This document shows, piece by piece, positions 5,248 to 30,094 of a stretch of DNA of 46,169 nt. The stretch covers positions 1-46,169 of IMG/VR virus record IMGVR_UViG_3300005264_000097; one strand, given 5' to 3'. A program made the translations under genes and the position numbers. Source of the stretch: a virus. How positions within the stretch are numbered: position 1 is the first letter of the stretch; each line of letters starts with the position of its first letter. The notes beneath the pieces were generated by a model, which was not told the origin of the DNA, searched no databases, and worked only from the letters and a program-made list of their open reading frames with translations.

Positions 5248-5263
5248 AAGGAGGAATAATTAT

Positions 5264-6232
5264 ATGAATAATGAATCATATATATTAGATTATTTACCTA
5301 TAAATTCTAAAAGAAGAAGTGGAAAGCTTCTAGAAACAGATAAGCCAAAGTTTGTTGACCATGATACAGGAAATCCAGATAGTACTGCGAAAGGAAATGT
5401 TAAGTATTTTAAACGTACCGCTAATGGTAGTTATAGTGCTAGTGCCCACGTTTTTATAGATGATATTGATATAATTATATGTATACCGTGTTTCCCAGGT
5501 GTTGCTGAAAAGGCATGGCATGTATTGTATCAAACTACTAAAGATAATGAAATATTTGGTGATGATTCTAATGATATTGCAATTGGTTCTGAGTTATGTT
5601 ATTTTCCAAAAGATAAAAAAAGAACTTTAGCTGCATATATGAATTATATTGATTTTCAAGCATATCTTGCATATCTATATGATGTAGATCCTAGACATAG
5701 AGCAGGACATTATATGTTAGATCCTACAAGAAAAACAGATCCTTTAAACGCATTATCTATAATAGATAAAACATATGAAGATATGGTTAATGATATTTAT
5801 ACAATTTATCTAAGTAAAAATAAAGAAAAAGAAAATGAATGTGCTGATTATGCTATTGAAGCAAGAGATTGGGTTATGGCTAATGGTATATCTGATGGTG
5901 CTAGAGCTTATGATAATATAAAACGAGTAGAACTTTGGGTTATGCTACGTAGATTATATGATAAAGATAATAAAGATTGTTTTGAAGGAATTGAGGATTG
6001 GGTAAGAGATAATAAAATATCTGATGGAACAAGACCAGATGATAATATAACAAGAGAAGAAACATGGGCAATATTATCAAGATATTTTAGTAAAGAAAAA
6101 ATTGTAGTAAATTGGGAAGAAGCATCAAAGAAATGGGCAGTAAATAATAAAATTTCAGATGGACTTAATCCTAAGTTTTTAACAGAACGTCAACAAGTTT
6201 GGACTATGCTATTTAGATGTATGAATTTATAA
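5264..6232 (+). CDS. N-acetylmuramoyl-L-alanine amidase with SLH-like C-terminal repeats (endolysin)
   Basis: 322 residues. The first about 190 form an Amidase_2-type zinc amidase cutting the bond between MurNAc and L-Ala in peptidoglycan. Visible motifs are FVDHDTGNPDST (first zinc His), SASAHVFIDD, KAWHVLYQ followed by the IGSELCYF strand, and GHYMLDPTRKTDPL (last zinc His plus Lys/Asp). Three wall-binding repeats follow, each of the type 'W...N.ISDG.RP.D...RE..W..L.R': DWVMANGISDGARAYDN, DWVRDNKISDGTRPDDN and KWAVNNKISDGLNP. This repeat is common in clostridial lysins. There is no signal peptide, so release needs a holin; the membrane protein gene at 6249 is convergent and adjacent. It could instead be virion-borne given its place beside tail genes. 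Confidence 0.88.
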   Translation: MNNESYILDYLPINSKRRSGKLLETDKPKFVDHDTGNPDSTAKGNVKYFKRTANGSYSASAHVFIDDIDIIICIPCFPGVAEKAWHVLYQTTKDNEIFGDDSNDIAIGSELCYFPKDKKRTLAAYMNYIDFQAYLAYLYDVDPRHRAGHYMLDPTRKTDPLNALSIIDKTYEDMVNDIYTIYLSKNKEKENECADYAIEARDWVMANGISDGARAYDNIKRVELWVMLRRLYDKDNKDCFEGIEDWVRDNKISDGTRPDDNITREETWAILSRYFSKEKIVVNWEEASKKWAVNNKISDGLNPKFLTERQQVWTMLFRCMNL

Positions 6233-12715: not shown

Positions 12716-14002
12716 ATGCAAAAATATATACATGAAACTGTATTAAGAGATGTGATAGATATAGTAGAAGGCTTGAAAAAATACGATGCAATAGATTCAT
12801 TTATGAATAGAAAAAATGGAAATATTAAATCTATAAATGATGCAGCAGCAGGACAAGTATTAGTTTTTCCAGTTATAGTAAGTAATAACCTTTCTATAGA
12901 TACAGCTCAAATGATGACTAAGTCTATTGAGAGAAAAGCAGTATCTTTATTACGTATATTATTTTCAGCAATACAAGTAACTAATGATGCAACTTTATCA
13001 AAATATTTGAAACAATTTCATAATAATTTAGATATAGATATGGTCGATTTTAGTGTTGAAAATATACTAGATTTAACTGATAAATATCTAATGGAAAATA
13101 CTATATTAAAAGAAGGAACTGATTATATTAAAATTAATCAGTATGATATCTCTAAGCAATTAAATAAGGATTATGCTAATTCTGATTTATATTTGGAAGA
13201 TTCTATTAATGAGAATGCTATTGGAGATTTTAAAATTAATAATGGTACAGATGTAGTATTAGAATACGATAATATTAAAGCAAAATCTGCGATAACTAAA
13301 TCTATGAATGATACTACTAAATATCTATCACAAAATTTATTAGATAATGATGTTAAAAAAGCTAATGAATTAGTGGAAACTCAAATGGTTGTTAATGTAA
13401 CATATCAAAATGAAGAAGGTGCGTTTTTACCATTACATTTAATAATTGGTATAAAAGCAAAAATGCATCCTGTAAATTCTATGGATATCATAGACAGATT
13501 AGTAATTAAAAATAAAGATAATAATTTTTTTATGAAACTAATACAAACTACTACTAGAGAGATATCATTCTTTAAAGATTTCCTATTAGGAATAGAAAGA
13601 TCTAAGTTAGATGCTATATCTGTATCTAGTAAATATAAAAAATCATCAGTACTATGGAAAGTATTAGAAAGACGTGCTAAGAAAAGTAAATTAAAACGTG
13701 TTGCTGGTTTACAAAACGATGCTATGTCTATAACAACGTTAGTTGTTTCTCAATCTGAGGTGGAATATTTAAAAACAGAACACAACATTAATATAGAGGA
13801 GCCTAAAGTAATTAGAAAAATTATGGAATCTTATAATCTAATGAGTGTTGTAATTGCAGATGAATCAAGTGAAATTGGTAAATTTATTTTTGACAATGGT
13901 TCAGATTTGTATGAGCATATTTCTTTTAGATCTTTAGAAAGAGAAAGCTCAGATAGAGATTATAAAAAATTGGTAAATCTAATGGCTAAGAATAGATATT
14001 AA
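12716..14002 (+). CDS. Unknown virion-region protein
   Basis: 428 residues with a strong ribosome site (aaggaggag). No signal peptide or membrane segment. The N-terminal third is mostly helical (YIHETVLRDVIDIVEGLKKY) and contains a hydrophobic stretch, AAAGQVLVFPVIVSNNLSID. The middle is acidic. Near residue 240 is a strand region, FLPLHLIIGIKAKMHPVNSM, and a basic patch follows (RRAKKSKLKRVAGLQ). It is first in an operon with the membrane-segment protein at 14022 and upstream of the inner-protein cluster, so it is probably part of the particle. Family not recognised. Confidence 0.75.
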   Translation: MQKYIHETVLRDVIDIVEGLKKYDAIDSFMNRKNGNIKSINDAAAGQVLVFPVIVSNNLSIDTAQMMTKSIERKAVSLLRILFSAIQVTNDATLSKYLKQFHNNLDIDMVDFSVENILDLTDKYLMENTILKEGTDYIKINQYDISKQLNKDYANSDLYLEDSINENAIGDFKINNGTDVVLEYDNIKAKSAITKSMNDTTKYLSQNLLDNDVKKANELVETQMVVNVTYQNEEGAFLPLHLIIGIKAKMHPVNSMDIIDRLVIKNKDNNFFMKLIQTTTREISFFKDFLLGIERSKLDAISVSSKYKKSSVLWKVLERRAKKSKLKRVAGLQNDAMSITTLVVSQSEVEYLKTEHNINIEEPKVIRKIMESYNLMSVVIADESSEIGKFIFDNGSDLYEHISFRSLERESSDRDYKKLVNLMAKNRY

Positions 14003-14021: not shown

Positions 14022-15026
14022 ATGACTTATGATAAAGTGCTACAAGAGTACTGTGATTTAAATGATTTAAAAACTCTTAAAGTTATGACCTCTATTAATG
14101 AGAATGATCAAAATACTGCTTTAATTAGTATAACTAATAAACTATATGAAAAAATAGTTGATAAGGTTGATGATATTGATTTTGGTGAAATTCCTAATAC
14201 TAAAGGAGACATTACTAAACTTACTCAGTATAGCCAATTACAAGAAACTATTGATTTAATTAAAAATCTATTAATAGAATATAAACAGGATACTAAACCT
14301 GCTGATACTATATTAACTGCTATAGAAAATATTAGATCACGTAAAAGTTTATTCGAGACTGCATATAAGACTAATACTGAATTACCTATGATTATGTATA
14401 ATACTTTAGTATTATCTATTATTAGTAGTATATCATATTTAATCTCTACTAGTATATCATATGTAAAAGATCCTAGTGATGAATCATTTATGATCGTAAT
14501 GGATAAAGTTGCTGTACGTAAATCTTCTTCTTCTTTACTATATAGTAATTTAGAAAAGTTTAATAGTACTTGTAAGAATGGTTCTTTTGATAAAGCTATG
14601 GATCATATAATTAAATCATCTGCAGATAATTTAATGGGTGTTATGGTAGGATTTCAAGTTATGCAGGCTACAAGTTTAATAGTTATTGCATTACTTCTTA
14701 TTCCTATGCTAAAAGAATTAATATATTTCTTCTATTATTCAAGAGTTAGAATTTCTGATTATTTTGATGCACAAGCAGATTTATTACAAATGAATATTTA
14801 TAATTTAGAAAGAAGTAAAACAAAACAAGCTAAAGATATAGAAAAAATTACTAAGAAACAAATAAAGCTAGTATCTATATTTAGAAAAATTGCTAATACT
14901 GTTCAAATAGATATGGATAAATCTGAAAATAGTGCTACTAAAGAAATAGTGTCAGATAATAAAAAATATAAATCTGATGAAATATTTGATGATGTTGCAC
15001 CTGATTCGGGATCAGCATTATTCTAA
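14022..15026 (+). CDS. Virion-region protein with two membrane segments
   Basis: 334 residues. Two hydrophobic stretches are evident: about residues 124-147 (IMYNTLVLSIISSISYLIST) and about 205-238 (SLIVIALLLIPMLKELIYFF). Between and around them are helical, charged segments, and the C-terminus has a Lys-rich coiled stretch (RSKTKQAKDIEKITKKQIK) ending in an acidic tail. It starts 19 bases after the preceding gene with a strong aaaggaggt site, so both are one operon. A protein with membrane segments beside head and inner-protein genes could be an ejected pore component, but that is inference. No known family recognised. Confidence 0.75.
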   Translation: MTYDKVLQEYCDLNDLKTLKVMTSINENDQNTALISITNKLYEKIVDKVDDIDFGEIPNTKGDITKLTQYSQLQETIDLIKNLLIEYKQDTKPADTILTAIENIRSRKSLFETAYKTNTELPMIMYNTLVLSIISSISYLISTSISYVKDPSDESFMIVMDKVAVRKSSSSLLYSNLEKFNSTCKNGSFDKAMDHIIKSSADNLMGVMVGFQVMQATSLIVIALLLIPMLKELIYFFYYSRVRISDYFDAQADLLQMNIYNLERSKTKQAKDIEKITKKQIKLVSIFRKIANTVQIDMDKSENSATKEIVSDNKKYKSDEIFDDVAPDSGSALF

Positions 15027-15155: not shown

Positions 15156-16250
15156 ATGGCTATTTATTCAAAAAATACACATGTTTTAGAAAACGTTCAA
15201 ACACCAGAACCTACTGAAGGTTATGTTGGAGAAAATGGGTTTGCTAGAATTATGATTGACAATGTTCAAAATGAACATGCATTATTTGAAGCACTAATTA
15301 TGAATGATTTTGAAGAGGTTGCATTGGGTGAATCTGCAACTATGGAACAATTACAACCTATCTATGAAGCAAGCATTGGTGGTTTCTTTGCTAAGATTAT
15401 AGAATTCTTAAAGAAAATTTGGGCTAAGATTGTTAACTTATTTAAAGTTTTCAAAGAAAAACTTATTCAATTATTTACTAAAGATTATGCTGCATATGTT
15501 AAGAAAACTAAACAAGCAGTTATTGCTAAGGATTTAACTAAATTTAAATTTAAAGCAAGAATGGGTAAATCTGGAACATTTGCTGTAGGTGGTGTAAAAT
15601 TTGCTGAGCCTAGTTTACAATCAGAAGATGTTCTTAGTATGTTTAACGAAAAAACAACTACTGATGATTTAGATAAAGCAATTTCAAGTCTTGATGAAGA
15701 TTTTAAATTAAAAGTATATAATGAAATGCATGGGTTAGATTCTAGTGAAATATCTGATATACCTAAAGATTTTATTGATAAATATTTTGAAGATGAAGAA
15801 GAAATTGAAGGATTAAAAAGTGAGCAATTAAATAGTATCTTATCTGTATTAACTGAGTATAAATCAATAATTAAAGATTTAGAAACTTCAGAAGGAAAAG
15901 TTAATAAACAATTTAAAAAAGAAACATCTGCTTTAGCTAAATTATCTAAGAAATATGCTGATATGCAACCTAAAGGTGGAACAGATGGAGATAAAAAAAT
16001 AACTGCAGAGCAAGCTGCTGTATCTTCTAAAATTGTTAGCTATACACAAAAATTATCAGGAATTAATTCAGCAGCATATACTGAATTTTCTAAGAATGTT
16101 ATGACTCTTACAAAATTATCAGTTAGTGAATCTTGGAAAGTATACAAAAAAGCAGTTACATTTAATCCTAAAGCAGTTAAAGAATCAACAGTATTATTTA
16201 ATGCTATTGATGAATCTGTTGATTATGAAATGGAATTAGCATTCGAATAA
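15156..16250 (+). CDS. Putative processed inner (ejected) protein, paralogue 1
   Basis: 364 residues. First of four tandem proteins with one plan: an acidic N-terminal segment, then I-x-E and a small residue (here I69-Y70-E71, then AS), then a strongly amphipathic aromatic/Lys helix (FFAKIIEFLKKIWAKIVNLF, continuing to about 108), then a long helical body. I-x-E is the cleavage consensus of the T4 gp21 prohead protease, and a related protease is encoded at 21854. Removal of the first 71 residues during head maturation would expose the helix. The N-terminus MAIY is shared with the proteins at 16308 and 25105 and may be a head-targeting tag. I infer an encapsidated protein that may insert into membranes on ejection. 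No database family is recognised. Confidence 0.72.
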   Translation: MAIYSKNTHVLENVQTPEPTEGYVGENGFARIMIDNVQNEHALFEALIMNDFEEVALGESATMEQLQPIYEASIGGFFAKIIEFLKKIWAKIVNLFKVFKEKLIQLFTKDYAAYVKKTKQAVIAKDLTKFKFKARMGKSGTFAVGGVKFAEPSLQSEDVLSMFNEKTTTDDLDKAISSLDEDFKLKVYNEMHGLDSSEISDIPKDFIDKYFEDEEEIEGLKSEQLNSILSVLTEYKSIIKDLETSEGKVNKQFKKETSALAKLSKKYADMQPKGGTDGDKKITAEQAAVSSKIVSYTQKLSGINSAAYTEFSKNVMTLTKLSVSESWKVYKKAVTFNPKAVKESTVLFNAIDESVDYEMELAFE

Positions 16251-16264
16251 TAAATTATTATATT

Positions 16265-16290
16265 AAGGGGAGAAAATCTCCCCTTTATTT
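16265..16290 (+). terminator. Terminator between inner-protein genes 1 and 2
   Basis: A 9-bp G+C-rich stem (aaggggaga, 16265-16273, with tctcccctt, 16277-16285), 3-base loop and T-rich 3' side. The next gene's ribosome site follows at once and no AACA-N6-TA motif intervenes, so partial read-through is likely and would set expression ratios. Confidence 0.8.
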
Positions 16291-16307
16291 TAAAGGAGGA
16301 ATATACA

Positions 16308-17372
16308 ATGGCTATTTATAATACAAGAGTTATTAGTGAAAGTTCTAATCTTGACAATATAGATGTAGAAGCAAGTAAATATGATGCTAACTTAGCAGGA
16401 GCTTCTATGTTAGTATATGAGAATGAATTAAATTATGCTAACATGATGAAAGCAGTTGGCATTAATGAATTAAATTACTTAATTGAGAATGGAACAGAAA
16501 TGATTTATGAAGGTGGAAACTTAAAAAGCTTCTTTGCAAAAGTTAAAGCATTCTTCGTAAAAATATATGAAAAAGTTAAAGGTTTATTCAAGAAGTTTAT
16601 TGCTACTATGGATAAATTTGTTTTATCTAATAAAGATTTTGTTAAGAAATATAGAGAAGCATTAACTAAAGTTAATACTACTGATTTTGAGTATAAGGGA
16701 TATGAGTATACTATTAATGCATTTAGTGTTGCTACTTCTTATGCTATAATGAAAGATCAAGATAAACATAGCAAATTCCCAGTAAATACTGCAACTGATG
16801 TAAAAGTTCTTACAGCTGAAAAAGATAGATTAACTGAAAATAAAGAAGACATTCAAGATTTATTAAGAGGTGCTTGTTTTAAAGGTGCTAAAAATAATAA
16901 CAATAAAGTTGATGCTACTGACTTTGATAAAGAGTTAAAAGCAATGTTTAGAAATGGTGAAGAATCACCTGAGATTATCGATAAAGTTGAAGTTACTGCA
17001 TTATTGAAAACTATTGATAGTTATAAAGACGTTAAGAAAGCTGCTGAAAAAGATTTATCTGATACTAAAAAGATTATCGATGCTATCATTAAAGATCTTA
17101 CTAAGCAAGAAAAAGATTTATCTTCTAAAATTCCTAAAGGAACTGAAGCTACTAATCTATTAAATGCTGCTTATGTATCATTATACAGCAAGTATCACCA
17201 ATTAAACAAAGATATGTTAGGATTCTTAACTAGAGCTAACGGTGCTAAGTTAGGTGCTATGAAATCAGACTTATCACAAGCTAAATCAGTATGTGTTAAA
17301 TTACTTTCATACAAACCTAAAAATGAAGCTGCTACTTTAGAGAGCGGATCTTTAGATGTTAATTTTATTTAA
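16308..17372 (+). CDS. Putative processed inner (ejected) protein, paralogue 2
   Basis: 354 residues. Same plan as its neighbour at 15156: MAIY start, acidic leader, I66-Y67-E68 then GG, and an amphipathic helix (SFFAKVKAFFVKIYEKVKGL, then FKKFIATMDKFVLSNKDFVKKY). The helical body has a short strand motif, FEYKGYEYTINAFSV. The gene at 17431 has a matching motif, FEWDGYEFTIFDNVP, which strengthens the paralogy. It contains 'FRNGEES', paralleled by 'FRDGEDS' in 17431. It is flanked by terminators on both sides. Function inferred as for paralogue 1: a head-internal protein cut by the prohead protease. The sequence of the bodies is otherwise poorly conserved between members. Confidence 0.72.
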   Translation: MAIYNTRVISESSNLDNIDVEASKYDANLAGASMLVYENELNYANMMKAVGINELNYLIENGTEMIYEGGNLKSFFAKVKAFFVKIYEKVKGLFKKFIATMDKFVLSNKDFVKKYREALTKVNTTDFEYKGYEYTINAFSVATSYAIMKDQDKHSKFPVNTATDVKVLTAEKDRLTENKEDIQDLLRGACFKGAKNNNNKVDATDFDKELKAMFRNGEESPEIIDKVEVTALLKTIDSYKDVKKAAEKDLSDTKKIIDAIIKDLTKQEKDLSSKIPKGTEATNLLNAAYVSLYSKYHQLNKDMLGFLTRANGAKLGAMKSDLSQAKSVCVKLLSYKPKNEAATLESGSLDVNFI

Positions 17373-17380
17373 GTAATTAC

Positions 17381-17417
17381 GAGATACACTCTTTGAGTGT
17401 ATCTCTTTTATTTTTTA
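17381..17417 (+). terminator. Terminator between inner-protein genes 2 and 3
   Basis: A perfect 11-bp stem (gagatacactc, 17381-17391, with gagtgtatctc, 17395-17405), 3-base loop and T-rich tail. The next ribosome site follows within about 12 bases with no promoter motif between. Confidence 0.85.
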
Positions 17418-17430
17418 GAAAGGAGAAATC

Positions 17431-18471
17431 ATGTTTAATATTAATACAATAATGAATGAAGCTTCTGTTGATTATGGCTATCAGAAATATGAAGAAAACT
17501 ATACATTAGAAATGATGAATTATATTATAGAATATAAAAAAGAATACAATAATGCGATTAAAGATTTATATTCAAATGTAATTAATGAATCTAATGTAGA
17601 AATAATACATGAATCATTTGAAAGTTTTATTAATAAAGTTAAAGAAATTATTAAAAAGTTTATAGCATTTATAAAAAGTTTATTTAATAGATTTATTACA
17701 TTATTAATGGGAATGGTTAAATCTGATAAATACTTAAAAAGTAATAAAGATAAATTAATGAAATTTGAAAATAAACACGAATTTGAATGGGATGGTTATG
17801 AGTTTACTATATTTGATAATGTACCTTTAGTTCATCTTGCTGAAATGGAATTTAGAAAAGATTTCTTCGATTTTGATGTTCCAGCAAAAGATATAGAAGT
17901 ATTATATGATGAATTTAAAAATACTTTATATGATGGATTTTATGATAAATTTAGAGCTACTGTAATTGGTAAAGATGGTGAATATATAGATGATGCAAAT
18001 TTCACAGGAGAATTATTTACACTATTTAGAGATGGTGAAGATTCTAGAAATAAATTCACTGTAGATAAAAACTATATAAGTAATGCTTATGATAATTATA
18101 AAAATTATAAAGATATTGAAAAGTCTATAAATAGAACTAAAACAGATATAGAAACTAATTATAGAAATATAGAGAGATATTTAGATAAAATGTATAAAGT
18201 TGTTTCAAAAGGTTCTGATAATCCTATATCTATTTTAGTTAAGGATTATGATAGTGGAAATGAAACACATGCTGTATTGACAAATAAACAAAAGATAATC
18301 TTTGATGAATTTATTAAAGCTAAATCTAATCAAGTCATAGGTATGTCTACTATACATGGTATTGCATTTAGTTCTAAATTAGATGCTATTAAAGATAGAT
18401 ATGATCAAGATAAAAGTATTATGTATAAAGCACTATTTAAAATCGATGGATATGCTAAGGAGGCGAAATAA
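17431..18471 (+). CDS. Putative processed inner (ejected) protein, paralogue 3
   Basis: 346 residues. Third member of the cluster. The leader carries several candidate cleavage sites (IMNEAS at 8-12, VINES at 50-54, and I59-H60-E61 then SF aligned with the other members). The amphipathic helix follows as FINKVKEIIKKFIAFIKSLF, then a hydrophobic extension, ITLLMGMV. The shared strand motif FEWDGYEFTIFDNVP and 'LFTLFRDGEDS' tie it to 16308. The N-terminus differs (MFNINTIMNEAS). It abuts the next gene with no gap: its stop is directly followed by the ATG at 18472, whose ribosome site (aaggagg) lies inside this gene. That suggests coupled translation. Confidence 0.72.
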   Translation: MFNINTIMNEASVDYGYQKYEENYTLEMMNYIIEYKKEYNNAIKDLYSNVINESNVEIIHESFESFINKVKEIIKKFIAFIKSLFNRFITLLMGMVKSDKYLKSNKDKLMKFENKHEFEWDGYEFTIFDNVPLVHLAEMEFRKDFFDFDVPAKDIEVLYDEFKNTLYDGFYDKFRATVIGKDGEYIDDANFTGELFTLFRDGEDSRNKFTVDKNYISNAYDNYKNYKDIEKSINRTKTDIETNYRNIERYLDKMYKVVSKGSDNPISILVKDYDSGNETHAVLTNKQKIIFDEFIKAKSNQVIGMSTIHGIAFSSKLDAIKDRYDQDKSIMYKALFKIDGYAKEAK

Positions 18472-20067
18472 ATGAATGATTATATAACAAGTCTTGCTTT
18501 TCAAAATTCTACTAATATATTTGAAAGTATGATAGAAGATGCGAAGTTGCAATTATTTATTAATGAGTCTATAGCACTATCTGAGAAAGACTTAACTAAT
18601 TTATCTTTGATAAATGAAGGGTTTAAAGATAAAGTTAAAGTAGCATGGGATAAATTAATGGCTATGATTGCTAAAATTTGGGCTAAATTTATGGCTAAAG
18701 TTGATGAACTATTTAAATCTAATTCTGATTATTTATCTAAATATAAGAATATTATTTTGAATGTACCCTTATCTGATGAGGAATACAATATGTATCCATA
18801 TTGGAAAGGGACTGATGAATTAAAGAAACTTAAAGTTCCTAAATTTGAATCTGATAAGATTCTTAAAGATAATGATGAATGTGCTGCTGAATATTATAAG
18901 AAATATTATAAGAAAGATATTGAATTAAAAGATAATATTAGAAACATTCTTCGTGGAAGTGATGAGATGACTAATATTCCTAAAGGGCAAATTCCAATGA
19001 CAGAAATGTATAATTACTGTAAGGATTTTGATAAATTAGCTTCATTAATTGAAAAAGATGTTAAGGCTTTAGAAGATGGTGGAAATACTGTAAAGAAATT
19101 ATTAAGGCAGATTAAAACAGAATCTGTAGATATTATATCTGGAGAACGTTATGTATATTCTAGCATATTAGAATCTTTTATTAATGAGAAAGTAATCCCT
19201 GGTGGAGATAAAAATAAAGATGGTAAACCAGATGATACAGAAAAGAAAAATAATGGTGAGCTTAATAAGAAAGCTGCTAATGGTGATGAGGGATCTATAA
19301 AACTTATAAATGATAAAATAGATTCTGCTAAGACATATGTAAGAGTTAGTCAATCGGTAATCTCAGTAAAGATGGAAATTGCTCAGAGTGCATATGAAGA
19401 CTATATGTTTATAATCAAAGACCATGTTAAGAAAAATGCTGATGCTAAACCTAAGAAAGACAATAGTACTGAAGATACTAAGAAAAAAGAAGATACTAGT
19501 TCTAAAGAAAATAAACAGAATGAAAAAGATTCTGGAAGCACAGATAAAGGATATAGTATTATAGATAAAGTTAAAAATGCAGTTAAAAAAAATAAGTCTA
19601 AAAAAGTAAAAGAATCTGCTGTAGATGAATCTGCAGCTAATCCAGGTGTAAGAGATCCTAACTGTCCAGATAATGATGGTACTGAAGCATCTAGAAAATA
19701 TAAGAATAGAACTGATGGTGCTAAAGGTGTAAGAGATCCTGATTGCCCAGATAATGATGGTACTGAAGCTTCTAGAAAATATAAGAATGCTAAAAAAGTT
19801 GTTGATGAATCAAATGCTAATCCAGGAGTAAGAGATCCTAACTGTCCAGATAATGATGGTACTGAAGCATCTAGAAAATATAAGAATGCTAAAGACGGTG
19901 CTAAAGGAGAAAGAGATCCTAACTGTCCAGATAATGATGGTACTGAAGCATCTAGAAAATATAAGAATAGAAAAGAAAATATGATTATTGATAATAAAGA
20001 TGCAATAGATATATATAAAGATCCTGAGGAATCAATTCAAGAATTTAGTATATCTAGTAATGATTAA
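18472..20067 (+). CDS. Putative processed inner protein, paralogue 4, with four C-terminal peptide repeats
   Basis: 531 residues. The first about 350 follow the family plan: leader with FINES and LSLINEGF (I47-N48-E49 aligned with the other members), then a Trp-containing amphipathic helix (VAWDKLMAMIAKIWAKFMAK), then a helical body. Unlike its siblings it has a Lys/Asp-rich linker (about 320-385) and four copies of a 21-residue unit at 392-412, 419-439, 452-472 and 479-499. Each unit has the core RDPNCPDNDGTEASRKYKN (one copy RDPDCP). The same unit occurs twice in the protein at 22784. The unit has one Cys, an acidic Asn/Asp loop and a basic end. Its function is unknown. A short acidic tail ends the protein. 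Confidence 0.72.
   Translation: MNDYITSLAFQNSTNIFESMIEDAKLQLFINESIALSEKDLTNLSLINEGFKDKVKVAWDKLMAMIAKIWAKFMAKVDELFKSNSDYLSKYKNIILNVPLSDEEYNMYPYWKGTDELKKLKVPKFESDKILKDNDECAAEYYKKYYKKDIELKDNIRNILRGSDEMTNIPKGQIPMTEMYNYCKDFDKLASLIEKDVKALEDGGNTVKKLLRQIKTESVDIISGERYVYSSILESFINEKVIPGGDKNKDGKPDDTEKKNNGELNKKAANGDEGSIKLINDKIDSAKTYVRVSQSVISVKMEIAQSAYEDYMFIIKDHVKKNADAKPKKDNSTEDTKKKEDTSSKENKQNEKDSGSTDKGYSIIDKVKNAVKKNKSKKVKESAVDESAANPGVRDPNCPDNDGTEASRKYKNRTDGAKGVRDPDCPDNDGTEASRKYKNAKKVVDESNANPGVRDPNCPDNDGTEASRKYKNAKDGAKGERDPNCPDNDGTEASRKYKNRKENMIIDNKDAIDIYKDPEESIQEFSISSND
19645..19968 (+). repeat. Four in-frame copies of a 63-bp coding repeat
   Basis: Copies lie at 19645-19707, 19726-19788, 19825-19887 and 19906-19968, with spacings of 81, 99 and 81 bases. 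They encode G-V/E-R-D-P-N/D-C-P-D-N-D-G-T-E-A-S-R-K-Y-K-N. Most differences are synonymous (gcatct versus gcttct, aactgt versus gattgc), pointing to selection on the peptide. The linkers also repeat (AKKVVDESNANP resembles VDESAANP). Two more copies are at 23225-23380 in another gene. Confidence 0.9.
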
Positions 20068-20084
20068 AAACAATAGGATTATAA

Positions 20085-21377
20085 ATGGCTAGAGGAAATG
20101 TGTACGGACAAAGTAGTGGAGGTCTTAAAGTAAATGATGTAGAGAAGACAACAGCAGTAATAAAAATAGGAAGTGTAGTAAGTGAAGGAGATCTTATTAG
20201 TTATGATGGTAGTGAAGTAACAAAAAGAGGTATTGGTAATAATATAAATAGTGGTAATGAATTTGTATTCACTAGTAGTAGTACTGTTTATATAAGTGCA
20301 GTATCTTTAACAAGTACTAAAGTTCTTGTTAGTTATAGAGATAATGATAATAATTATTATGGTACTTCTATAGTTCTTAATATAAGTGAAGATATAATAA
20401 CTAGTGGTAGTGCTTATATATTTAATAGTAGTGATACTGGTTTTATAAGTGCAGTATCTTTAACAAGTACTAAAGTTCTTGTTAGTTATCAAGATGGTGG
20501 TAATAGTCAATATGGTACTGCTATAGTTCTTAATATAAATGGTATTAATATAACTAAAGGTAGTGAATTTGTATTTAATAGTGGTGCTGATTATATAAAT
20601 GCTGTATCTTTAACAGATACTAAAGTACTTATTAGTTATAGAGATTATGGTAATAATTTTTATTGTACTTCTATAGTACTTAATATAAGTGGAAATATTA
20701 TAAGTAAAGGTAGCCCTTATGTATTTAGTAATAGTACTAATACTGAATATATAAGTGCTACTTCTTTAACAGATACTAAAGTTCTTGTTAGTTATAATGA
20801 TAGTAGTAATAGTTATTATGGTACTTCTATAGTACTTAATATAAGTGGTACTAATATAACTAAAGGTAGTCCTTATGTATTTAATAATATTGGTAGTACT
20901 TATTATATAAGTGCAGTATCTTTATCAGATACTAAAGTATTTGTTAGTTATCAAAATAAAGGTAATAGTTATTATGGTACTTCTATAGTACTTAATATAA
21001 ATGGTACTAATATAACTGGTGGTAGCCCTTATGTATTTAATAGTGGTAATAGAACTGATTATATAAATGCTATATCTTTATCAGATACTACAGTACTTGT
21101 TAGTTATAAAGATAATAGTTCTTATGGTACTTCTATAGTTCTTAATATAGATGGTAATAATATAAGTAAAGGAAGTGAATATATATTTAATAGTGGTTAT
21201 ACACAATATATAAGTATAGTATCTTTAACAGATACTAAAGTACTTGTTAGTTATCAAGATACTGGTAATAATAGTTATGGTACTTCTATAGTTCTTAATC
21301 TTAATAAGTTAGAGCCAGAAGGTATTGCATTAAAGAGTGGTACTGGTGGAGAAACAATAGACATATATAAATTTTAA
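20085..21377 (+). CDS. Seven-repeat beta-propeller protein, copy 1
   Basis: 430 residues. An N-terminal cap (MARGNVYGQSSGGLKVNDV, then a 'GDLISYDGSEV' element) is followed by seven repeats of about 48-52 residues with the core YISAVSLTDTKVLVSYxD..N.YGTSIVLNI.G..IT.GS.YVFNSG. The C-terminal cap is ALKSGTGGETIDIYKF. Seven WD-like blades predict a closed propeller. Copies 2 (28805) and 3 (38831) share the caps exactly or nearly. Copy 1 alone lacks the promoter block and strong ribosome site: only a weak 'agga' precedes its ATG, 17 bases after the inner-protein stop. It may therefore depend on read-through. It is probably an exposed carbohydrate- or receptor-binding decoration, inferred from fold and context only. 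Confidence 0.75.
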   Translation: MARGNVYGQSSGGLKVNDVEKTTAVIKIGSVVSEGDLISYDGSEVTKRGIGNNINSGNEFVFTSSSTVYISAVSLTSTKVLVSYRDNDNNYYGTSIVLNISEDIITSGSAYIFNSSDTGFISAVSLTSTKVLVSYQDGGNSQYGTAIVLNINGINITKGSEFVFNSGADYINAVSLTDTKVLISYRDYGNNFYCTSIVLNISGNIISKGSPYVFSNSTNTEYISATSLTDTKVLVSYNDSSNSYYGTSIVLNISGTNITKGSPYVFNNIGSTYYISAVSLSDTKVFVSYQNKGNSYYGTSIVLNINGTNITGGSPYVFNSGNRTDYINAISLSDTTVLVSYKDNSSYGTSIVLNIDGNNISKGSEYIFNSGYTQYISIVSLTDTKVLVSYQDTGNNSYGTSIVLNLNKLEPEGIALKSGTGGETIDIYKF

Positions 21378-21853: not shown

Positions 21854-22678
21854 TTAAAATGATGAATCAACATAATCCATTATTTTATCTGTAATATAAT
21901 TTTCTATATATACTACAAATCTAGAACCTTCTTTATCTACTAGTGTAACATGTTTTGCATCTTCAGATAATATAATATCATCATATAGAAATTCAAATGA
22001 TTCTAATACACTTTTTATATTAGTAGATTCTTTAATGTAATTCATAACTTGTTGATTATTAATAGGCTCTAATAATCCTTTATCATTATTTTCACATATT
22101 AAATTACTAGATTCTCCCAATATAACAGATTCTGATACATTAACAAATTTATCCATATATGCTCTATCATGACTAGGATATATAACCCAATCCCAAGTTA
22201 TAATTTTAATATTACGAACTTCTGCACCTCTAGATGTATTACTTACACTTCCCAAGGCTCTTAAAGAAAAAGCAACTTTAGTTCCATTTTCAATTAAACG
22301 TTTAAAGTCATCTCCAACTCTAGTACTAGCAGGTTCAACATGTGCTCTAATATCATTTCCACTAATCCATATTTTAGATATAAGTATAGCTAAATTTGTA
22401 GGATCTATAGTCTGTTGTCTACTTAATTCTTTACTTGTAGGGTGACCTGCCTCTCCAAAAAGACTTCTATTGTTTATTAATTCTGTCATTCTTGGAACTG
22501 ATATTTGTGGAGCTAATTCTTGTGTATCATAAAATCTACCATTTCTATTTTTAACCATCATATCTTGTAAGATTACCTCTATTATTGGATTACCATTTAC
22601 TGATTCACCTATGACTTTTGGAACTTGTGGAGAACTACTTGCTGTTTCACATATCATATATCCTATATTTTTACTCAT
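21854..22678 (-). CDS. Prohead maturation serine protease (T4 gp21-like)
   Basis: 274 residues. It cleaves scaffold, capsid and internal proteins inside the prohead before DNA packaging. Family features seen: VKNRNGRFYD near 43-51; LFGEAGHP with the catalytic His79; a strand region DPTNLAILISKIWISGNDIR; then GTKVAFSLRALGS with the nucleophile Ser138. This is the order of the S77/T4 gp21 family (GELGHP ... GVSSRG). Possible self-cleavage sites of I/L-x-E type are VIGES near residue 25 and ILGESS near residue 190. The T4 enzyme also processes itself. It is on the opposite strand to the capsid genes, with its own divergent AACA-N6-TA promoter at 22709. Confidence 0.85.
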   Translation of the reverse strand: MSKNIGYMICETASSSPQVPKVIGESVNGNPIIEVILQDMMVKNRNGRFYDTQELAPQISVPRMTELINNRSLFGEAGHPTSKELSRQQTIDPTNLAILISKIWISGNDIRAHVEPASTRVGDDFKRLIENGTKVAFSLRALGSVSNTSRGAEVRNIKIITWDWVIYPSHDRAYMDKFVNVSESVILGESSNLICENNDKGLLEPINNQQVMNYIKESTNIKSVLESFEFLYDDIILSEDAKHVTLVDKEGSRFVVYIENYITDKIMDYVDSSF

Positions 22679-22752: not shown

Positions 22753-22783
22753 ATAGATTTATAGAGAATTGGAGGGATTTAAC

Positions 22784-25084
22784 ATGGAACAAATAACTTT
22801 TAAACAGTTAAAAAAGATTTCAGAAAGTATCGATAGAAAATATCCATACTCTAATTATAATTTTAGTGAAAATTTGTTATTAAAAGAAGCAAATTCGTTA
22901 GAAGGTTTAAAAACTTTAGTTAGCAATTGGGGTATATTATCTGGAGATAATAGATTCATATTTAAAACTATTATAGAAAATATGAATAACTTACCAGAAA
23001 AAAATTATGATATAATTAATAATGTAATTGTAGAAAATTTTATTAATTATTTAAGTCATGATGAAAATATTAATGACTATATTAATATAATAAATGATGT
23101 TGGAAATTCAGCAATACAAGAATCACTTATTCCTAAATTAAGAAGAAATATAAAACAAAGATCTATAATAAGAAATGTAAATATTCTTCAAAAGAAACGA
23201 AGACCTAGTGCGAATAGAGCATTAGGTGTAAGAGATCCTAATTGTTTAGATAATGATGGAACTGAAGCGTCTAGAAAATATAAGAATAGAAGAACTAATA
23301 ACATAAACAGAGATAGGGGTGTAAGAGATCCCAACTGTCCAGATAATGATGGAACTGAAGCTTCTAGAAAATATAAGAATGCTTTATCTGAATATGTATA
23401 TGAATATGTAGATACTATTGTAGATGAATACAAAGATAAATTATCTCCAATAAAGATATATGCTATAACGTTAGAATCTATGAAGATTATAATTGAAGGT
23501 TTAGGAGGATATTCTAATCCATCAGATATTATGGAAATTGTTACTGAATATTTCTTATTAGAAAATAGAGTAGATGTTTCTCCAATAGATATGTATTCAG
23601 GGATAGTTGAATCGGATGTATATGCTGATAAAGATAAAATAGTAACAGAAAATATGCTTAGTTATGCTTTTAGTTATGAAGATATAATAAATGAGTCTAA
23701 ATTAACTAAGAAACAAAGAGACAAGTTATCAGATGATGATTTTGGATTGCCTAAGGAACGTAAATATCCATTAACTGATGAAAATCATGTAAAATCTGCA
23801 ATTCGATTCTTTAATAAATGTGATGATGATAAAAAACCTATTTTAGCACGTAATATTCTTGGGGCTATTAGTAAATTAGATTTAAAAGATATTGATTATA
23901 AAGAATCAGATTGGTTTACTTATGCTAATGATAAAATAAAAGAATCTGGAATAGAATTTGATGGTGTTTATAGTGAATTTATTAATAGAGAATTATATAC
24001 TGAAAGTGAAAAACTTCAAAAGTTTATAGCTAAAACCAAAGATTCAATTCCTGTATTATTAACTAAAGCTACTGCTACTTATAAAAAGCATCCAAAAGAT
24101 ACTATAGATAAATTAGCAAAAGCAATTTATGCTAAACCTGTAGATGATATAATGCATGATTCATATAGTATTATTAGATTAGGACGTAAATTTGTTATTA
24201 TAGGTATTGTGACTTTAGGAACAGCAGGTGCTAGTACAGCACTTATACCTTTCGCTATTGGTTTTGTAACAGGATTTATTGATGAAATGATAGATAATGA
24301 TATTAATAGAAAGCAAGCTGATAAATTATTAAAAGAAGTTAACGAGGAAATAAAATATGTTGAAGATAAAAAAGATAAGACTACTAATGATGATAAAGAA
24401 AAAGAGTATAGTAAATATATTAAAGAATTAGAAGATAAGAAATATAAGATTGAAGCTTATAGAGATAATTTATTATCTGAAAAAGAACAAGAAAGACTTG
24501 ATAATGAAGAGGAAGAAGATTCACTTGAAGAGATAGCCAGATTATCAATAGCTTTAGAGCAATTTGAATTAAATAGTGGAGAGTCTATTCTAGAAGTTAG
24601 TGCAGTTAAACTTCTTAATGATACTATTAAAAGAGCTGGTAATAAAACAATTGGAAAAATTTCAGCAAAAGATAGATCTTTATCTAAACAGATAGATAAT
24701 TCTGTTGAGAAACTTGAAAATAAAATAAGAATGTCTTTAAAAAATGATAGTAGAGAAAAAGTTATTAAAGGTCAAATTCTTCCATCAATGTCTAAACTTA
24801 TTAAACTAGTAGTAGCTGTTGGTGCAACATGGGCAGTAGCTCCAATGCTAGCGGTAGTAGGTTCTGTTGCAGCTATAGCTATAGCTAAAGATTCAAATGC
24901 CAAAGAACGTAAAATGATACTAGATGAATTAGATGTTGAATTAAAAATTGTTGAGAAAAAACTCCATCAAGCTGAAATGAACAATGATATGAAGGCATAT
25001 GGTGAATTATTAAGATTAGAGAAGAAACTTAATTTAGAAAAGAAACGTATTAAGTATAAGCTTAAGACTGGCAATTCATTATAA
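22784..25084 (+). CDS. Large putative inner protein with two shared peptide repeats and membrane segments
   Basis: The ATG at 22784 (after ggaggg) is preferred over an in-frame TTG at 22769 that overlaps the ribosome site, giving 767 residues. The leader contains I/L-x-E sites (KISES, LLLKEANS) like the inner-protein cluster. Two copies of the 21-residue repeat lie at residues 148-168 and 179-199, with one Pro to Leu change. Two hydrophobic segments follow: about 468-500 (FVIIGIVTLGTAGASTALIP) and about 670-705 (LVVAVGATWAVAPMLAVVGS). Each is followed by a charged coiled-coil (ADKLLKEVNEEIKYVEDKK; LDVELKIVEKKLHQAEMNN), suggesting an internal duplication. It lies between the protease and capsid genes. 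I infer an encapsidated, possibly membrane-active protein. Confidence 0.7.
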   Translation: MEQITFKQLKKISESIDRKYPYSNYNFSENLLLKEANSLEGLKTLVSNWGILSGDNRFIFKTIIENMNNLPEKNYDIINNVIVENFINYLSHDENINDYINIINDVGNSAIQESLIPKLRRNIKQRSIIRNVNILQKKRRPSANRALGVRDPNCLDNDGTEASRKYKNRRTNNINRDRGVRDPNCPDNDGTEASRKYKNALSEYVYEYVDTIVDEYKDKLSPIKIYAITLESMKIIIEGLGGYSNPSDIMEIVTEYFLLENRVDVSPIDMYSGIVESDVYADKDKIVTENMLSYAFSYEDIINESKLTKKQRDKLSDDDFGLPKERKYPLTDENHVKSAIRFFNKCDDDKKPILARNILGAISKLDLKDIDYKESDWFTYANDKIKESGIEFDGVYSEFINRELYTESEKLQKFIAKTKDSIPVLLTKATATYKKHPKDTIDKLAKAIYAKPVDDIMHDSYSIIRLGRKFVIIGIVTLGTAGASTALIPFAIGFVTGFIDEMIDNDINRKQADKLLKEVNEEIKYVEDKKDKTTNDDKEKEYSKYIKELEDKKYKIEAYRDNLLSEKEQERLDNEEEEDSLEEIARLSIALEQFELNSGESILEVSAVKLLNDTIKRAGNKTIGKISAKDRSLSKQIDNSVEKLENKIRMSLKNDSREKVIKGQILPSMSKLIKLVVAVGATWAVAPMLAVVGSVAAIAIAKDSNAKERKMILDELDVELKIVEKKLHQAEMNNDMKAYGELLRLEKKLNLEKKRIKYKLKTGNSL
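23225..23380 (+). repeat. Two further copies of the 63-bp coding repeat
   Basis: Copies at 23225-23287 and 23318-23380 match those at 19645-19968 in protein sequence (DNDGTEASRKYKN core identical), with several silent base changes. They are separated by a basic linker (RRTNNINRDR). Confidence 0.9.
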
Positions 25085-25104: not shown

Positions 25105-25824
25105 ATGGCAATTTACGGAAGACGAATAGTTCAAAAATCAATTAATGAATTAGATTTATCTAAAAATAAAAAAGATGATAAAGAAACAGGATATGATTTA
25201 CCTGAAGATGATAAAGAAGAAACTAATGTTTCTTCTGATCCAGCACCAGATGAAGGATATGATTTACCACCTGAAGAAGGAGAAGGAGATCCAGCACCAG
25301 AAGATCCAGCACCAGATGAAGGAGAAGGAGATCCAGCACCAGAAGATCCAGCACCAGATGAAGGAGAAGGAGATCCAGCACCAGATGAAGGATATGATTT
25401 ACCACCTGAAGAAGGAGAAGGAGATCCAGCACCAGATGAAGGAGAAGGAGATCCAGCACCAGATGAAGGAGAAGGAGATGCAGAGGAAGAAACTAATCCT
25501 GAGGATGAAATCTTTCAAGATTTATCAGATAATGAAAAAAAGATAAGAGATAAACATCTTATTGGTTTATACGTTGATTTATATACTACATTAAATTCTT
25601 ATATGGATAAATTAAATAATATTTCAAAAAATGAAATGAATATAGAAATATTAAGATTTATATCTATAAAATCAAAAGAATTAATTAATATATTATATGA
25701 CTATATTTATAATGTATATAATACTAGAACATATGTAGAAAATTATACTAATTATTATATATATCTAGCATCATTTGATAAAATCAATAAATTAATGGAA
25801 GAATTAGATAAAAAGAATGAATAA
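25105..25824 (+). CDS. Acidic Pro/Glu/Asp-repeat protein upstream of the capsid gene
   Basis: 239 residues. The N-terminus MAIYGRRIVQKSINELDLSK has the MAIY tag of the inner proteins and an I-N-E site. Residues about 45-130 are repeats of GEGDPAPDE and GYDLPPEE, with no other composition. The last about 100 residues are helical (NEKKIRDKHLIGLYVDLYTT; NYYIYLASFDKINKLMEELD). An acidic, extended protein with a head-type N-terminus just upstream of the major capsid gene fits a scaffold or an internal core protein, but no family match supports this. Open frames in other registers through the repeat are by-products of its 9-base periodicity. Confidence 0.7.
   Translation: MAIYGRRIVQKSINELDLSKNKKDDKETGYDLPEDDKEETNVSSDPAPDEGYDLPPEEGEGDPAPEDPAPDEGEGDPAPEDPAPDEGEGDPAPDEGYDLPPEEGEGDPAPDEGEGDPAPDEGEGDAEEETNPEDEIFQDLSDNEKKIRDKHLIGLYVDLYTTLNSYMDKLNNISKNEMNIEILRFISIKSKELINILYDYIYNVYNTRTYVENYTNYYIYLASFDKINKLMEELDKKNE
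25250..25482 (+). repeat. Low-complexity tandem coding repeats (PAPDE-GEGD)
   Basis: Nearly exact repetition of units such as 'gatccagcaccagatgaa' and 'ggagaaggag' and two copies of the GYDLPPEE segment (25255-25278 and 25390-25413). The identity at DNA level implies recent expansion by slippage or unequal exchange. Confidence 0.85.
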
Positions 25825-25941: not shown

Positions 25942-27570
25942 ATGAGTATAGTTGGAACTAGAAAAACTGTAAGAGCAAATGGATATTCAAAAGATCCTAT
26001 GCATGCAATGGCGAAAGAATTCGCTGAAAAATCAAGAGGTATTTTAAATGAATCAGGATTAGACATCTTTTCAGAAGCAAGTAAAGTAGCTATGAATGAA
26101 TCTACTAAAGAAACATTATGGGCTTATTTTTCAGAAAACTTCTTAGACCCTAATATTGAAATGTCAGCAGAGGATAGAAACGATCAAATGGAAATGTTAA
26201 GAGAGCAATTCGAGAATGACATCGAGGCTATCAAAGAGCATGCTCCAATCGGTGCTGCAAATCCAGTAATGGGTATGTTATTACCATTACACAAAAACTT
26301 ATTAATGAATACAATTTGGGATAAAGGCGTAGTTAATAAAGCTGTTGCTGTATCTCCAAAAATTACTATCTCTATGGAGCAAAGAATTTTAGTTGATGCT
26401 CTTGGAAATGAATACGATCTTTATAAAGATCAAATGAGTATTAAAGCTGCTATTGATGCTGCTAATCCTGATACTGTTGTTGAATTATCATTACCAGAAA
26501 CTGGAGATACTGATATTTTAGATGAAATTGGAGCTACTTCTAAAGATCATTTAGAAATAACTACTCACATTTGTGAATATCAATTAGATCCTGCTGTTGA
26601 TGCTACATGGTATACTACTAAAATCGAAACTAAACCAAGTTATGGTGAATTCGATAGAGCTGCTATGGCAACTGTTGTATGTGGAGCTGAAACTGATGTA
26701 ATTAACTTTACTATGAAAAAAGATAGATTGACTATTTCTTCTTTAAAAGGTTTAGTTAAAAAAGTTAAAGTTAAAGCTAAGAAAGATACTTCTAATGGAT
26801 TAACTGGAACTGCTTCTGTTAAATGGAAATCAACTACTGATGTAGTAGAAATCCCAACTGCACCAGCAATCAATACTACTATTTCACCAGAAGAAGTTAA
26901 AGATATTTCTGCTCTTTATAAAGTAGATCAATTAACTAAGATTATGTCAATTACTAAAGATGTAATGGCTAATTATAAAGATGACACTATTAGAGATTTC
27001 TTAGAAGAGTCATTCCAATTATTAGATCCATCTCAAAAGAGAGAAGCTACATTCTCATTCAAGCCACCAACTGATGGTACTTACAATGGAGGATTTGTTT
27101 CTTGGAGAAGAGATACATTTATGGATATCTTAGACACAATTGCTGGAGAATTATTAAATATTCTTAATGATCCTAATATGACTATTACTGTAGTTGGACG
27201 TCCTGATTTAATCAGAAAAATTACTCCTACTGAGTATAGCTACCAATCATCTAAAAATGTTGGTCCTGTTGAATTAGATTTCACTAAGACTGTAACTACT
27301 TCAGATAGAAGAGTTTATCAATTCATTTCTTCTCAAAAAGAAGATGGAAATAATGATTTAAGAATTATTATTAATCCAAGAAACTCTGAAAGAATTATCT
27401 ACAGATTATACGATTATCAATTATATGTATCTAACGAAATTAGAAACGCTAATAATCCTGTATTACCAGCTGTTCATACTTTCGAAAGATTCAAAATGAC
27501 TGAATATCAACCAATCCAAGGAAAAGTTACTATTACTAATCCTGATGGTGGTTATGTAACAAGACCATAA
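25942..27570 (+). CDS. Major capsid protein
   Basis: 542 residues. Gene position (after protease and putative scaffold/inner genes), length and composition fit a large-phage HK97-fold capsid protein. The codon choice is visibly richer in G/C third positions than its neighbours, as expected for a very highly expressed gene. The N-terminal about 50 residues are helical with possible protease sites (GILNES at 33-38, IFSEAS, AMNES), so a propeptide ending near residue 37-53 is likely. The segment LPLHKNLLMNTIWDKGVVNK resembles the start of the mature capsid fold. The rest is strand-rich with an insertion (about 180-290) that could be a surface domain. It ends TITNPDGGYVTRP and is followed by a terminator. 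Confidence 0.82.
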   Translation: MSIVGTRKTVRANGYSKDPMHAMAKEFAEKSRGILNESGLDIFSEASKVAMNESTKETLWAYFSENFLDPNIEMSAEDRNDQMEMLREQFENDIEAIKEHAPIGAANPVMGMLLPLHKNLLMNTIWDKGVVNKAVAVSPKITISMEQRILVDALGNEYDLYKDQMSIKAAIDAANPDTVVELSLPETGDTDILDEIGATSKDHLEITTHICEYQLDPAVDATWYTTKIETKPSYGEFDRAAMATVVCGAETDVINFTMKKDRLTISSLKGLVKKVKVKAKKDTSNGLTGTASVKWKSTTDVVEIPTAPAINTTISPEEVKDISALYKVDQLTKIMSITKDVMANYKDDTIRDFLEESFQLLDPSQKREATFSFKPPTDGTYNGGFVSWRRDTFMDILDTIAGELLNILNDPNMTITVVGRPDLIRKITPTEYSYQSSKNVGPVELDFTKTVTTSDRRVYQFISSQKEDGNNDLRIIINPRNSERIIYRLYDYQLYVSNEIRNANNPVLPAVHTFERFKMTEYQPIQGKVTITNPDGGYVTRP

Positions 27571-27617: not shown

Positions 27618-27639
27618 TATATATTTGGAAGGAGGAATA

Positions 27640-28473
27640 ATGAATTATAATTTTTCAAAATTTGAAGAAATACTCTCGGGTATAAGACATAAAGCAACTA
27701 AAGCAGGATTAAATGATTTAAAAAAAGAATTAAATAATTTCTTTAGTGATAGTAAATGTTTAGAAGTTTTATATACACATAATACAGATAAAATGTTTTT
27801 TGGTATGTCTGTAATTCCTAATCTTGGATTTAATTATATTGGAGCTTTAGTAGCTAATCAGCCAAGACGATTTGATCAATATTATTTAGAGTTAGATTCT
27901 AGATTATTTTCACCATTACTTGGATTAACTGATAAAGAATTAACTGCGATATTATTACATGAAGTTGGACACTTAGTAAATAATGCATCTGCATCTATTA
28001 ATTTATCAAACATAATAAATGTTAAGATTGATCAAGATGGTGTATCTATAGATAGAGCTAAAGCATCTAAAGAATCTAAACTTATTAATTTAGGAATAAT
28101 AAAAGCATTAAGAAAAACAACTTCTATATTCCATAAAAATGATGAAGAGTATATTGCTGATGCTTTTGTAGTTGATTGTGGATATGGTCAACCATTAGAA
28201 CGTGCATATCATAAAATTATTAATGATAAAGAGTTAATTAATAATAAAGAATCTAATGATTATAAAATTAGTACTTTATTATGGACTTTACAAGTTTATA
28301 CTTCAATGGGTATGAGAAGAAGAGCTGTTTTAAAACGTCTTAAAGAAGGCGAAGAAATGGAATCTTCTGTATTAATGATAAGACTATATAAAGATGCTTA
28401 TGAAAAAATTAAAAGTAATACTTATGTTTTAGAAGAATCAGGATATCTATTAATTGAAGAATATAAGAATTAA
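27640..28473 (+). CDS. Zinc metallopeptidase-like protein (HExxH)
   Basis: The ATG at 27640 is chosen because the TTG at 27625 would overlap the ggaagg-agg ribosome site; this gives 277 residues. The motif LLHEVGHLV (His107-Glu108, His111) and a downstream EEYIADAF (Glu170, Asp174) fit a gluzincin of the M48-like type, where the second Glu is the third zinc ligand. No membrane segment or signal peptide is visible, unlike many cellular M48 enzymes, so it would act in the host cytoplasm or in the particle. It lies directly after the major capsid gene, where a second head-processing peptidase or a late host-directed protease are both possible. The substrate is unknown. Confidence 0.75.
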   Translation: MNYNFSKFEEILSGIRHKATKAGLNDLKKELNNFFSDSKCLEVLYTHNTDKMFFGMSVIPNLGFNYIGALVANQPRRFDQYYLELDSRLFSPLLGLTDKELTAILLHEVGHLVNNASASINLSNIINVKIDQDGVSIDRAKASKESKLINLGIIKALRKTTSIFHKNDEEYIADAFVVDCGYGQPLERAYHKIINDKELINNKESNDYKISTLLWTLQVYTSMGMRRRAVLKRLKEGEEMESSVLMIRLYKDAYEKIKSNTYVLEESGYLLIEEYKN

Positions 28474-28804: not shown

Positions 28805-30094
28805 ATGGCTAGAGGAAATGTGTACGGACAAAGTAGTGGAGGTCTTAAAGTAAATGATGTTTTAAAGAAAACAGCAGTAATAAAGAGTGGTAGTATAGTA
28901 AGTGAAGGAGATCTTATTAGTTTTGATGGTAGTGAAGTAATAAAGAGAGGTATAACTAATGATATAAGTAATGGTAATGAATATGTATTTAATAATAGTG
29001 TTATTTCTAATATAAGTGTAACTACTTTAACAAGTACTAAAGTACTTGTTAGCTATATGGATAATGATAATAATAGTAATGGTACTGCTATAGTACTTAA
29101 TATAGATGGTACTAATATAACTAGTGGTAATAAATTTATATTTAATAATGGTAGTACTTCTTATATAAGTGCAACTACTTTAACAAGTACTAAAGTACTT
29201 GTTAGTTATAGAGATACTAATATGTATGGTACTGCTATAGTACTTAATATAAGTGGAAGTACTATAACTAGTGGTAGTGCTTATTTATTTAATAGTTATA
29301 GAACTCATTCTATAAATACTATATCTTTAACAGATACTAAAGTACTTGTTAGTTATAGAGATGAAGGTAATAATGATTATGGTACTTCTATAATTCTTAA
29401 TATAAGTGGTATTAATATAACTAGTGGTAGTGAATATGTATTTAATAATAGTAATTCTTATACTACTGATATAAGTGCAGTAAAATTAACAGATACTAAA
29501 ATACTTGTTAGTTATAAAGATTATGGTAATAGTCAATATGGTACTGCTATAGTACTTAATGTAGATGGTACTAATATAACTAAAGGTAATGCTTATGTAT
29601 TTAATTATGGTAATACTGATAGTATAAGTGCTACTTCTTTAACAAGTACTAAAGTTCTTGTTAGTTATAAAAATAATAATAGTATTGATACTGGTACTGC
29701 TATAGTACTTAATGTAGATGGTAATGATATAACTAAAGGTAGCCCTTATGTATTTAATTATAATGGTAGTACTGATTATATAAGTGCAGTATCTTTATCA
29801 GATAGTAAAGTACTCGTTAGTTATAGTGATAATGGTAATAATAGTTATGGCACTACTATAGTACTTACTATAGATGGTAATGTAATAACTAGTGGTAATG
29901 AATATGTATTTAATAGTGGAAAAACTTATGATATAAATGCAGTATTTTTAACAGATTCTAAAATATTTATTAGTTATATGGATAATAATTTTTATGGTAC
30001 TTCTGTAGTATTAGATGTATCTAAAACAGATATAGAAGGTCTTGCTCTTAAGAGTGGTACTGGTGGAGAAACAATAGATATATATAAATTTTAA
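28805..30094 (+). CDS. Seven-repeat beta-propeller protein, copy 2
   Basis: 429 residues. The N-terminal cap is identical to copy 1 for 19 residues (MARGNVYGQSSGGLKVNDV), then come seven blades (for example NISVTTLTSTKVLVSYMDND; YISATTLTSTKVLVSYRDTN), ending in GLALKSGTGGETIDIYKF. Blades vary mainly in the loops around 'YxD..N..YGT' while the strands are constant, the pattern expected of a scaffold with variable contact loops. It has its own promoter motif and strong ribosome site. It is inserted between the capsid-metallopeptidase module and the polymerase fragment, a place with no functional link, which suggests a movable cassette. Role inferred as a virion surface decoration. Confidence 0.75.
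   Translation: MARGNVYGQSSGGLKVNDVLKKTAVIKSGSIVSEGDLISFDGSEVIKRGITNDISNGNEYVFNNSVISNISVTTLTSTKVLVSYMDNDNNSNGTAIVLNIDGTNITSGNKFIFNNGSTSYISATTLTSTKVLVSYRDTNMYGTAIVLNISGSTITSGSAYLFNSYRTHSINTISLTDTKVLVSYRDEGNNDYGTSIILNISGINITSGSEYVFNNSNSYTTDISAVKLTDTKILVSYKDYGNSQYGTAIVLNVDGTNITKGNAYVFNYGNTDSISATSLTSTKVLVSYKNNNSIDTGTAIVLNVDGNDITKGSPYVFNYNGSTDYISAVSLSDSKVLVSYSDNGNNSYGTTIVLTIDGNVITSGNEYVFNSGKTYDINAVFLTDSKIFISYMDNNFYGTSVVLDVSKTDIEGLALKSGTGGETIDIYKF

Follow-up and report, generated by a model that had tools for sequence, protein, structure and literature searches.

The T4 prohead protease gp21 has a preference for L/I-x-E. Among the closest described systems to the locus studied here are the inner-body proteins of the jumbo phages phiKZ and SPN3US. 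In these phages, phiKZ gp92–gp96 and SPN3US gp53–gp54 (PF12699) are encoded in tandem behind gp89 and gp50, respectively, and phiKZ gp89 is itself counted among the inner-body proteins (PMC13282480). The cleavage motif is S/A/G-x-E in phiKZ (PMC13282480) and A-x-E in SPN3US (PMC10052503), where the mature N termini of gp53 and gp54 were established by mass spectrometry as (E)GWKETLKDLFER and (E)SLWDDIK (PMC10052503). When these sequences were compared, S-x-E was invariant in all five phiKZ proteins with a helix coming next, and the mapped SPN3US termini coincided with the start of the corresponding amphipathic helix. Injection of phiKZ gp93, gp94, gp95, and gp163 has been demonstrated by western blots (PMC10449902). 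Phages of the PBS1-type clade are reported to encode multisubunit RNA polymerases and to lack chimallin (PBS1, PMC10299810). In BpSp, gp272, an orthologue of the proteins described below, was seen in virions (11 peptides; PMC4870245).

The four genes and their neighborhood

The window, that is the whole stretch of DNA analyzed, is a 46-kb IMG/VR virus record (46,169 nucleotides) with a GC content of 26%. An inner-body cluster is opened by the gene at 12716–14002 (+ strand; phrog_23804, E = 5e-35), a homologue of phiKZ inner-body gp89, SPN3US gp50, and AR9 gp213. The HMM of this family matched phiKZ gp89 (47.8 bits), a Phabio protein, and SPN3US gp50, and the protein itself is 24–28% identical to proteins of the jumbo phages AR9, PBS1, BpSp, Listeria LPJP1, and Staphylococcus AH12. 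The next gene (14022–15026, + strand; phrog_23545, E = 2.7e-23) occupies the place of phiKZ gp90 and codes for a virion protein (AR9 gp214, BpSp gp271), the equivalence to gp90 being positional and without a sequence match. Elsewhere in the window, positions 4087–6232 carry a papain-type protease with a Cu_amine_oxidN1 domain and then an Amidase_2 enzyme, the C-terminal repeats of which are SLH-like in appearance, and these enzymes suggest a Gram-positive host.

Four + strand genes for inner-body-like proteins, here termed w1 (15156–16250, 364 aa), w2 (16308–17372, 354 aa), w3 (17431–18471, 346 aa), and w4 (18472–20067, 531 aa), lie in tandem behind the gp89 homologue and the gp90-position gene. 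An initial annotation had given these genes leaders of 49–71 residues ending in IYE, IYE, IHE, and INE, and the open reading frames and translations bore this out in full. The leaders of w1 to w4 are 71, 68, 61, and 49 residues long, with net charges of −11, −8, −7, and −6, and each closes in hydrophobic-x-E (PIYE/AS, MIYE/GG, IIHE/SF, and LINE/GF). Predicted cuts after Glu71 (15366–15368), Glu68 (16509–16511), Glu61 (17611–17613), and Glu49 (18616–18618) would leave mature proteins of 293, 286, 285, and 482 residues. Across the family, 98% of leaders are acidic (mean charge −9.7). The ~34 residues past each junction contain 5–8 aromatics and 7–8 Lys/Arg with a net charge of +4 to +6. In no other window of the same protein is the 18-residue hydrophobic moment as high as the best value reached in this stretch. 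Composition and hydrophobic moment agree with the aromatic- and Lys-rich amphipathic helix originally proposed; its proposed length of ~30 residues does not hold for w2, where the modeled helix spans residues 72–120 (~76–106 in w1).

When w2 alone was scanned against IMG/VR, no relatives came up, and the gp89-like neighbor at 12716 was for this reason used as bait, which yielded 34 IMG/VR loci. Phage records gave no matches to w1 and w4, searched as DNA and by tblastn. An iterated profile then gave 71 family members at 24 distinct loci, with at most five detected per locus, and at these 24 loci the members were almost always directly behind the gp89- and gp90-position genes. Two loci (L006 and L008) carry orthologues of w1–w4 in unchanged gene order, and AR9 and BpSp each have two proteins of like plan at the equivalent locus. 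The low bulk identity noted at the outset was confirmed in pairwise comparison (13–23% to w1), but the mature bodies are clearly homologous by profile, since hhalign of the w1–w3-type against the w4-type alignment matched them at E = 1.5e-16. The four are therefore true paralogues along their length and not at the N terminus alone. These genes are real, well conserved, and of a kind already described.

The third and fourth units form one gene of 700–900 aa in L022 (14532–16742), L023 (14057–16279), L027 (14975–17296), L032 (15001–17373), and L088 (4996–7692), and probably also in L009 (15054–17174), where the first unit matches the w3 profile weakly. Most fused genes retain an internal hydrophobic-x-E ahead of the second helix, and the simplest reading is that they encode polyproteins that would be separated by the protease; so read, the retained junction provides independent support for processing at this site. 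Enzyme cargo was considered for the 700–900-aa members; no such domain was found and several of them are the fused units.

The C-terminal tail of w4 is disordered and carries four copies of a 21-aa repeat, GVRDPNCPDNDGTEASRKYKN (19644–20010, + strand). The same repeat occurs twice (23224–23422) in the unrelated protein encoded at 22769, and the DNA of the copies is nearly identical. It was absent from the L006 and L008 orthologues, from phage records (tblastn), and from IMG/VR (exact scan), and therefore appears to have spread recently, in frame, between w4 and the gene at 22769, both of them head genes. The latter (22769–25084), which lies between the protease gene and the capsid gene, encodes a large head-region protein with two hydrophobic segments; its counterpart in L002 is 835 aa long and similar in the C-terminal part. 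Three closely similar proteins built of ~50-aa repeats are encoded at 20085–21377, 28805–30094, and 38831–40108 (minus strand), scattered among head and tail genes; they have a conserved common N terminus and a common C terminus, ALKSGTGGETIDIYKF, and the repeat units of the 20085 gene are mostly 150–156 nt.

The junction and the prohead protease

Conservation of the junction was quantified in 70 family members from ~24 related contigs, with positions counted relative to the helix anchor. A Glu was present at −9 or −10 in 52 of the 70, and P3 was hydrophobic in 51 of these 52; with Glu at −13 to −15, P3 was hydrophobic in 5 of 36. The motif hydrophobic-x-E-small was found at most 26 residues before the anchor in 60 of 70 members, as against 42% of shuffled windows and 24% of body windows. 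In a reduced set of 44, hydrophobic-x-E lay 6–12 residues before the anchor in 35, and 2000 shuffles gave a mean of 16.6 and a maximum of 27. The exact motif is absent in 10 of 70 members, among them AR9 gp215 and BpSp gp272, in which it is displaced. Alignment of eight w4-type proteins left four invariant columns, the junction Glu being one of them. Judged by these sequence statistics, the junction is not a product of chance. The original proposal of an expanded head-protein family with a protease junction ahead of an amphipathic helix is upheld by this conservation, and the arrangement is the one mapped in SPN3US gp53/gp54.

The gp21-like protease expected from the initial annotation is present on the minus strand (21854–22678). 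It matches Peptidase_S80 (phiKZ gp175 family; E = 2e-13, 50.5 bits, cutoff 23.4) slightly better than Peptidase_S77 (T4 gp21; E = 1.2e-11), and its catalytic His/Ser motifs (GExGHP and FSLRA) are conserved, which together with the profile match make it an S80 prohead protease. The C-terminal part of this protease family contains sites resembling hydrophobic-x-E, recalling the C-terminal self-cleavage of SPN3US gp245 (PMC10052503). In the major capsid protein (25942–27570, + strand; phrog_20655, E = 6e-23), the sequence AIKE/HAPIGAANPVMG places IKE ahead of the presumed mature start, and the presumed mature domain, the start of which is conserved, was directly preceded by [ILV]-x-E in 18 of 18 capsid proteins compared. 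Because [ILV]-x-E recurs in the inner-body junctions and the capsid proteins, with similar sites in the C-terminal part of the protease, the P3 rule of this clade seems to be hydrophobic, as opposed to S/A/G-x-E in phiKZ and A-x-E in SPN3US.

The capsid gene is immediately preceded by a gene (25105–25824) whose product is small and acidic; its tandem DPAPDEGEG repeats are also spanned by a second open frame. This product is probably a scaffold or core protein, and L002 has a Gly/Asp-rich protein at the equivalent position. Immediately after the capsid gene, 27625–28473 encodes an M48-like metallopeptidase.

Relationship to phiKZ-type inner-body proteins

Against the PF12699 cutoff of 27 bits, w4 scored 25.2 (E = 1.2e-5 over residues 32–85), w1 15.6, and w2 13.4, with no match for w3, and the four proteins are thus outside the Pfam family as defined. 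The best of 40 relatives reached E = 2.9e-6 and 10 of the 40 had E < 0.01; any other Pfam family matched one member only. When 22 related whole records were scanned, all 16 matches, each sub-cutoff, fell within inner-body genes, and 14 control genomes gave none. Comparison by hhalign with phiKZ gp92–gp96 (five sequences only) brought junction and helix into register, the match being weak (probability 8%, E = 0.0043), and hhalign of the w4 alignment against the phiKZ proteins was without success.

The AlphaFold2 model of w2 (pLDDT 82.9, pTM 0.83) consists of a leader helix (29–61), a low-confidence linker with IYE at 66–68, the helix at 72–120, and then a helical body. The best viral matches to this model in Foldseek were uncharacterized proteins from Myoviridae together with a protein of 368 aa, the same length as BpSp gp272, followed by a 296-aa AR9 protein and then by many phiKZ-like virion proteins, each non-significant (E > 0.01). 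On this model, the structural neighbors would be PBS1-like proteins first and phiKZ-like virion proteins after. The w4 model was poor overall (pLDDT 59), with a low-confidence helix drawn across the junction, and served only as support; though weak, it matched several of the top Foldseek proteins of w2. A fold search of the PDB gave no significant match, and long-helix pore formers in its list (E > 0.5) were discounted as evidence.

The four proteins are therefore best called divergent homologues of the inner-body family and not Pfam members of PF12699, the direct comparison with phiKZ being weak. The initial annotation had regarded the phiKZ inner-body proteins as mere analogues, a view contradicted by the synteny, the genome-wide PF12699 scan, and the common junction-plus-helix plan, all of which indicate homology. 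For the T4 internal proteins, no IPI/II/III or Alt family was among the Pfam or PHROGs matches.

Discussion

We consider it probable that w1–w4 are a divergent branch of the phiKZ-type inner-body (ejection) proteins, distantly homologous to gp92–gp96 and gp53–gp54 (PF12699), in what appears to be a PBS1/AR9-like jumbo phage. This is said with the caveats that PF12699 matches are sub-cutoff, that the hhalign comparison is weak, that each phiKZ-like Foldseek match has E > 0.01, and that 10 of 70 members lack the exact motif. The acidic leader would direct each precursor into the prohead core, where the S80-type protease would cut after [ILV]-x-E; conservation suggests this cleavage here, and mass spectrometry has shown it in the homologues from SPN3US. 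The mature protein, beginning just ahead of the cationic amphipathic helix, would remain packed with the DNA and leave the head with it at ejection, as for phiKZ gp93, gp94, gp95, and gp163. For w1–w4, both cleavage and ejection are inferred.

One could instead regard w1–w4 as core or scaffold proteins that build or order the head, are cut at maturation, and have no job after ejection. The acidic leaders and multiple cut-like sites suit core proteins, and in SPN3US the absence of gp243 from the head goes along with absence of gp53/gp54 and with instability (PMC5694885), but the mature part is conserved and makes up at least two thirds of each protein, and the phiKZ homologues enter the cell, so that we hold this alternative to be rather doubtful.

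In another scheme, the ejected set would be host-takeover or entry factors, and cleavage would expose a cationic amphipathic helix able to bind the host membrane or perturb it. The helix has the top hydrophobic moment in each of w1–w4 with its positive net charge, the leaders are acidic, and the phiKZ homologues are injected. However, although this clade has a strongly amphipathic helix with a mean net charge of +4, its cationic character is not conserved, because phiKZ-type helices range from −1 to +6, and a membrane role is therefore possible and not favored. The w2 model also shows a single confident 49-residue helix within an all-helical fold, so that the amphipathicity may merely mirror packing, and the PDB search returned no significant pore-former match. 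We judge this scheme unlikely. An elaboration, in which the leader masks the cationic helix as do the pro-segments of antimicrobial peptides, head cleavage arms an ejected membrane-acting set, and some relatives make two factors as a polyprotein split at the internal [ILV]-x-E, is a speculation to which we give little credence. That the four proteins have no common ancestry, with convergent Lys-rich helices and chance I-x-E triplets, might be argued from the low pairwise identity and the weak direct phiKZ profile match, but is barely tenable against the motif position statistics, the profile alignment of the bodies, the conserved synteny, and PF12699 matching nowhere else.

Reading w1–w4 as divergent inner-body proteins brings PBS1-type jumbo phages into the phiKZ inner-body system, with respect to both gene order and cleavage plan. 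If true, injected inner-body proteins are not restricted to the phage-nucleus lifestyle, with AR9, PBS1, and BpSp becoming usable Gram-positive models for the family. The cleavage rule with hydrophobic P3 makes a concrete prediction for mass spectrometry of virions.

Among known systems, phiKZ gp92–gp96, gp162, and gp163 (PF12699) share with this locus the tandem array after gp89/gp90, the S80 protease, and a variable copy number, as well as the long leader, x-E junction, amphipathic helix, and helical body. They differ in that w1–w4 fall under the Pfam cutoff, have a hydrophobic P3 ([ILV]-x-E, not S/A/G-x-E) and shorter leaders, and belong with a PBS1-type clade reported to be without chimallin. 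SPN3US paralog family A, gp53 and gp54, is alike in having two tandem members at the equivalent place with the mature N terminus, from mass spectrometry, at the helix start, and unlike in its A-x-E cleavage and propeptides of 125 and 137 residues, compared with 49–71 here. AR9 gp215/gp216 and BpSp gp272/gp273 have the same locus and N-terminal plan, with BpSp gp272 present in virions, but number two copies and have a displaced or altered junction motif. The T4 proteins IPI–III and Alt, with gp21, work alike, through a targeting leader, a cut after L/I-x-E, packaging, and ejection, but their leader is 10–20 residues long.
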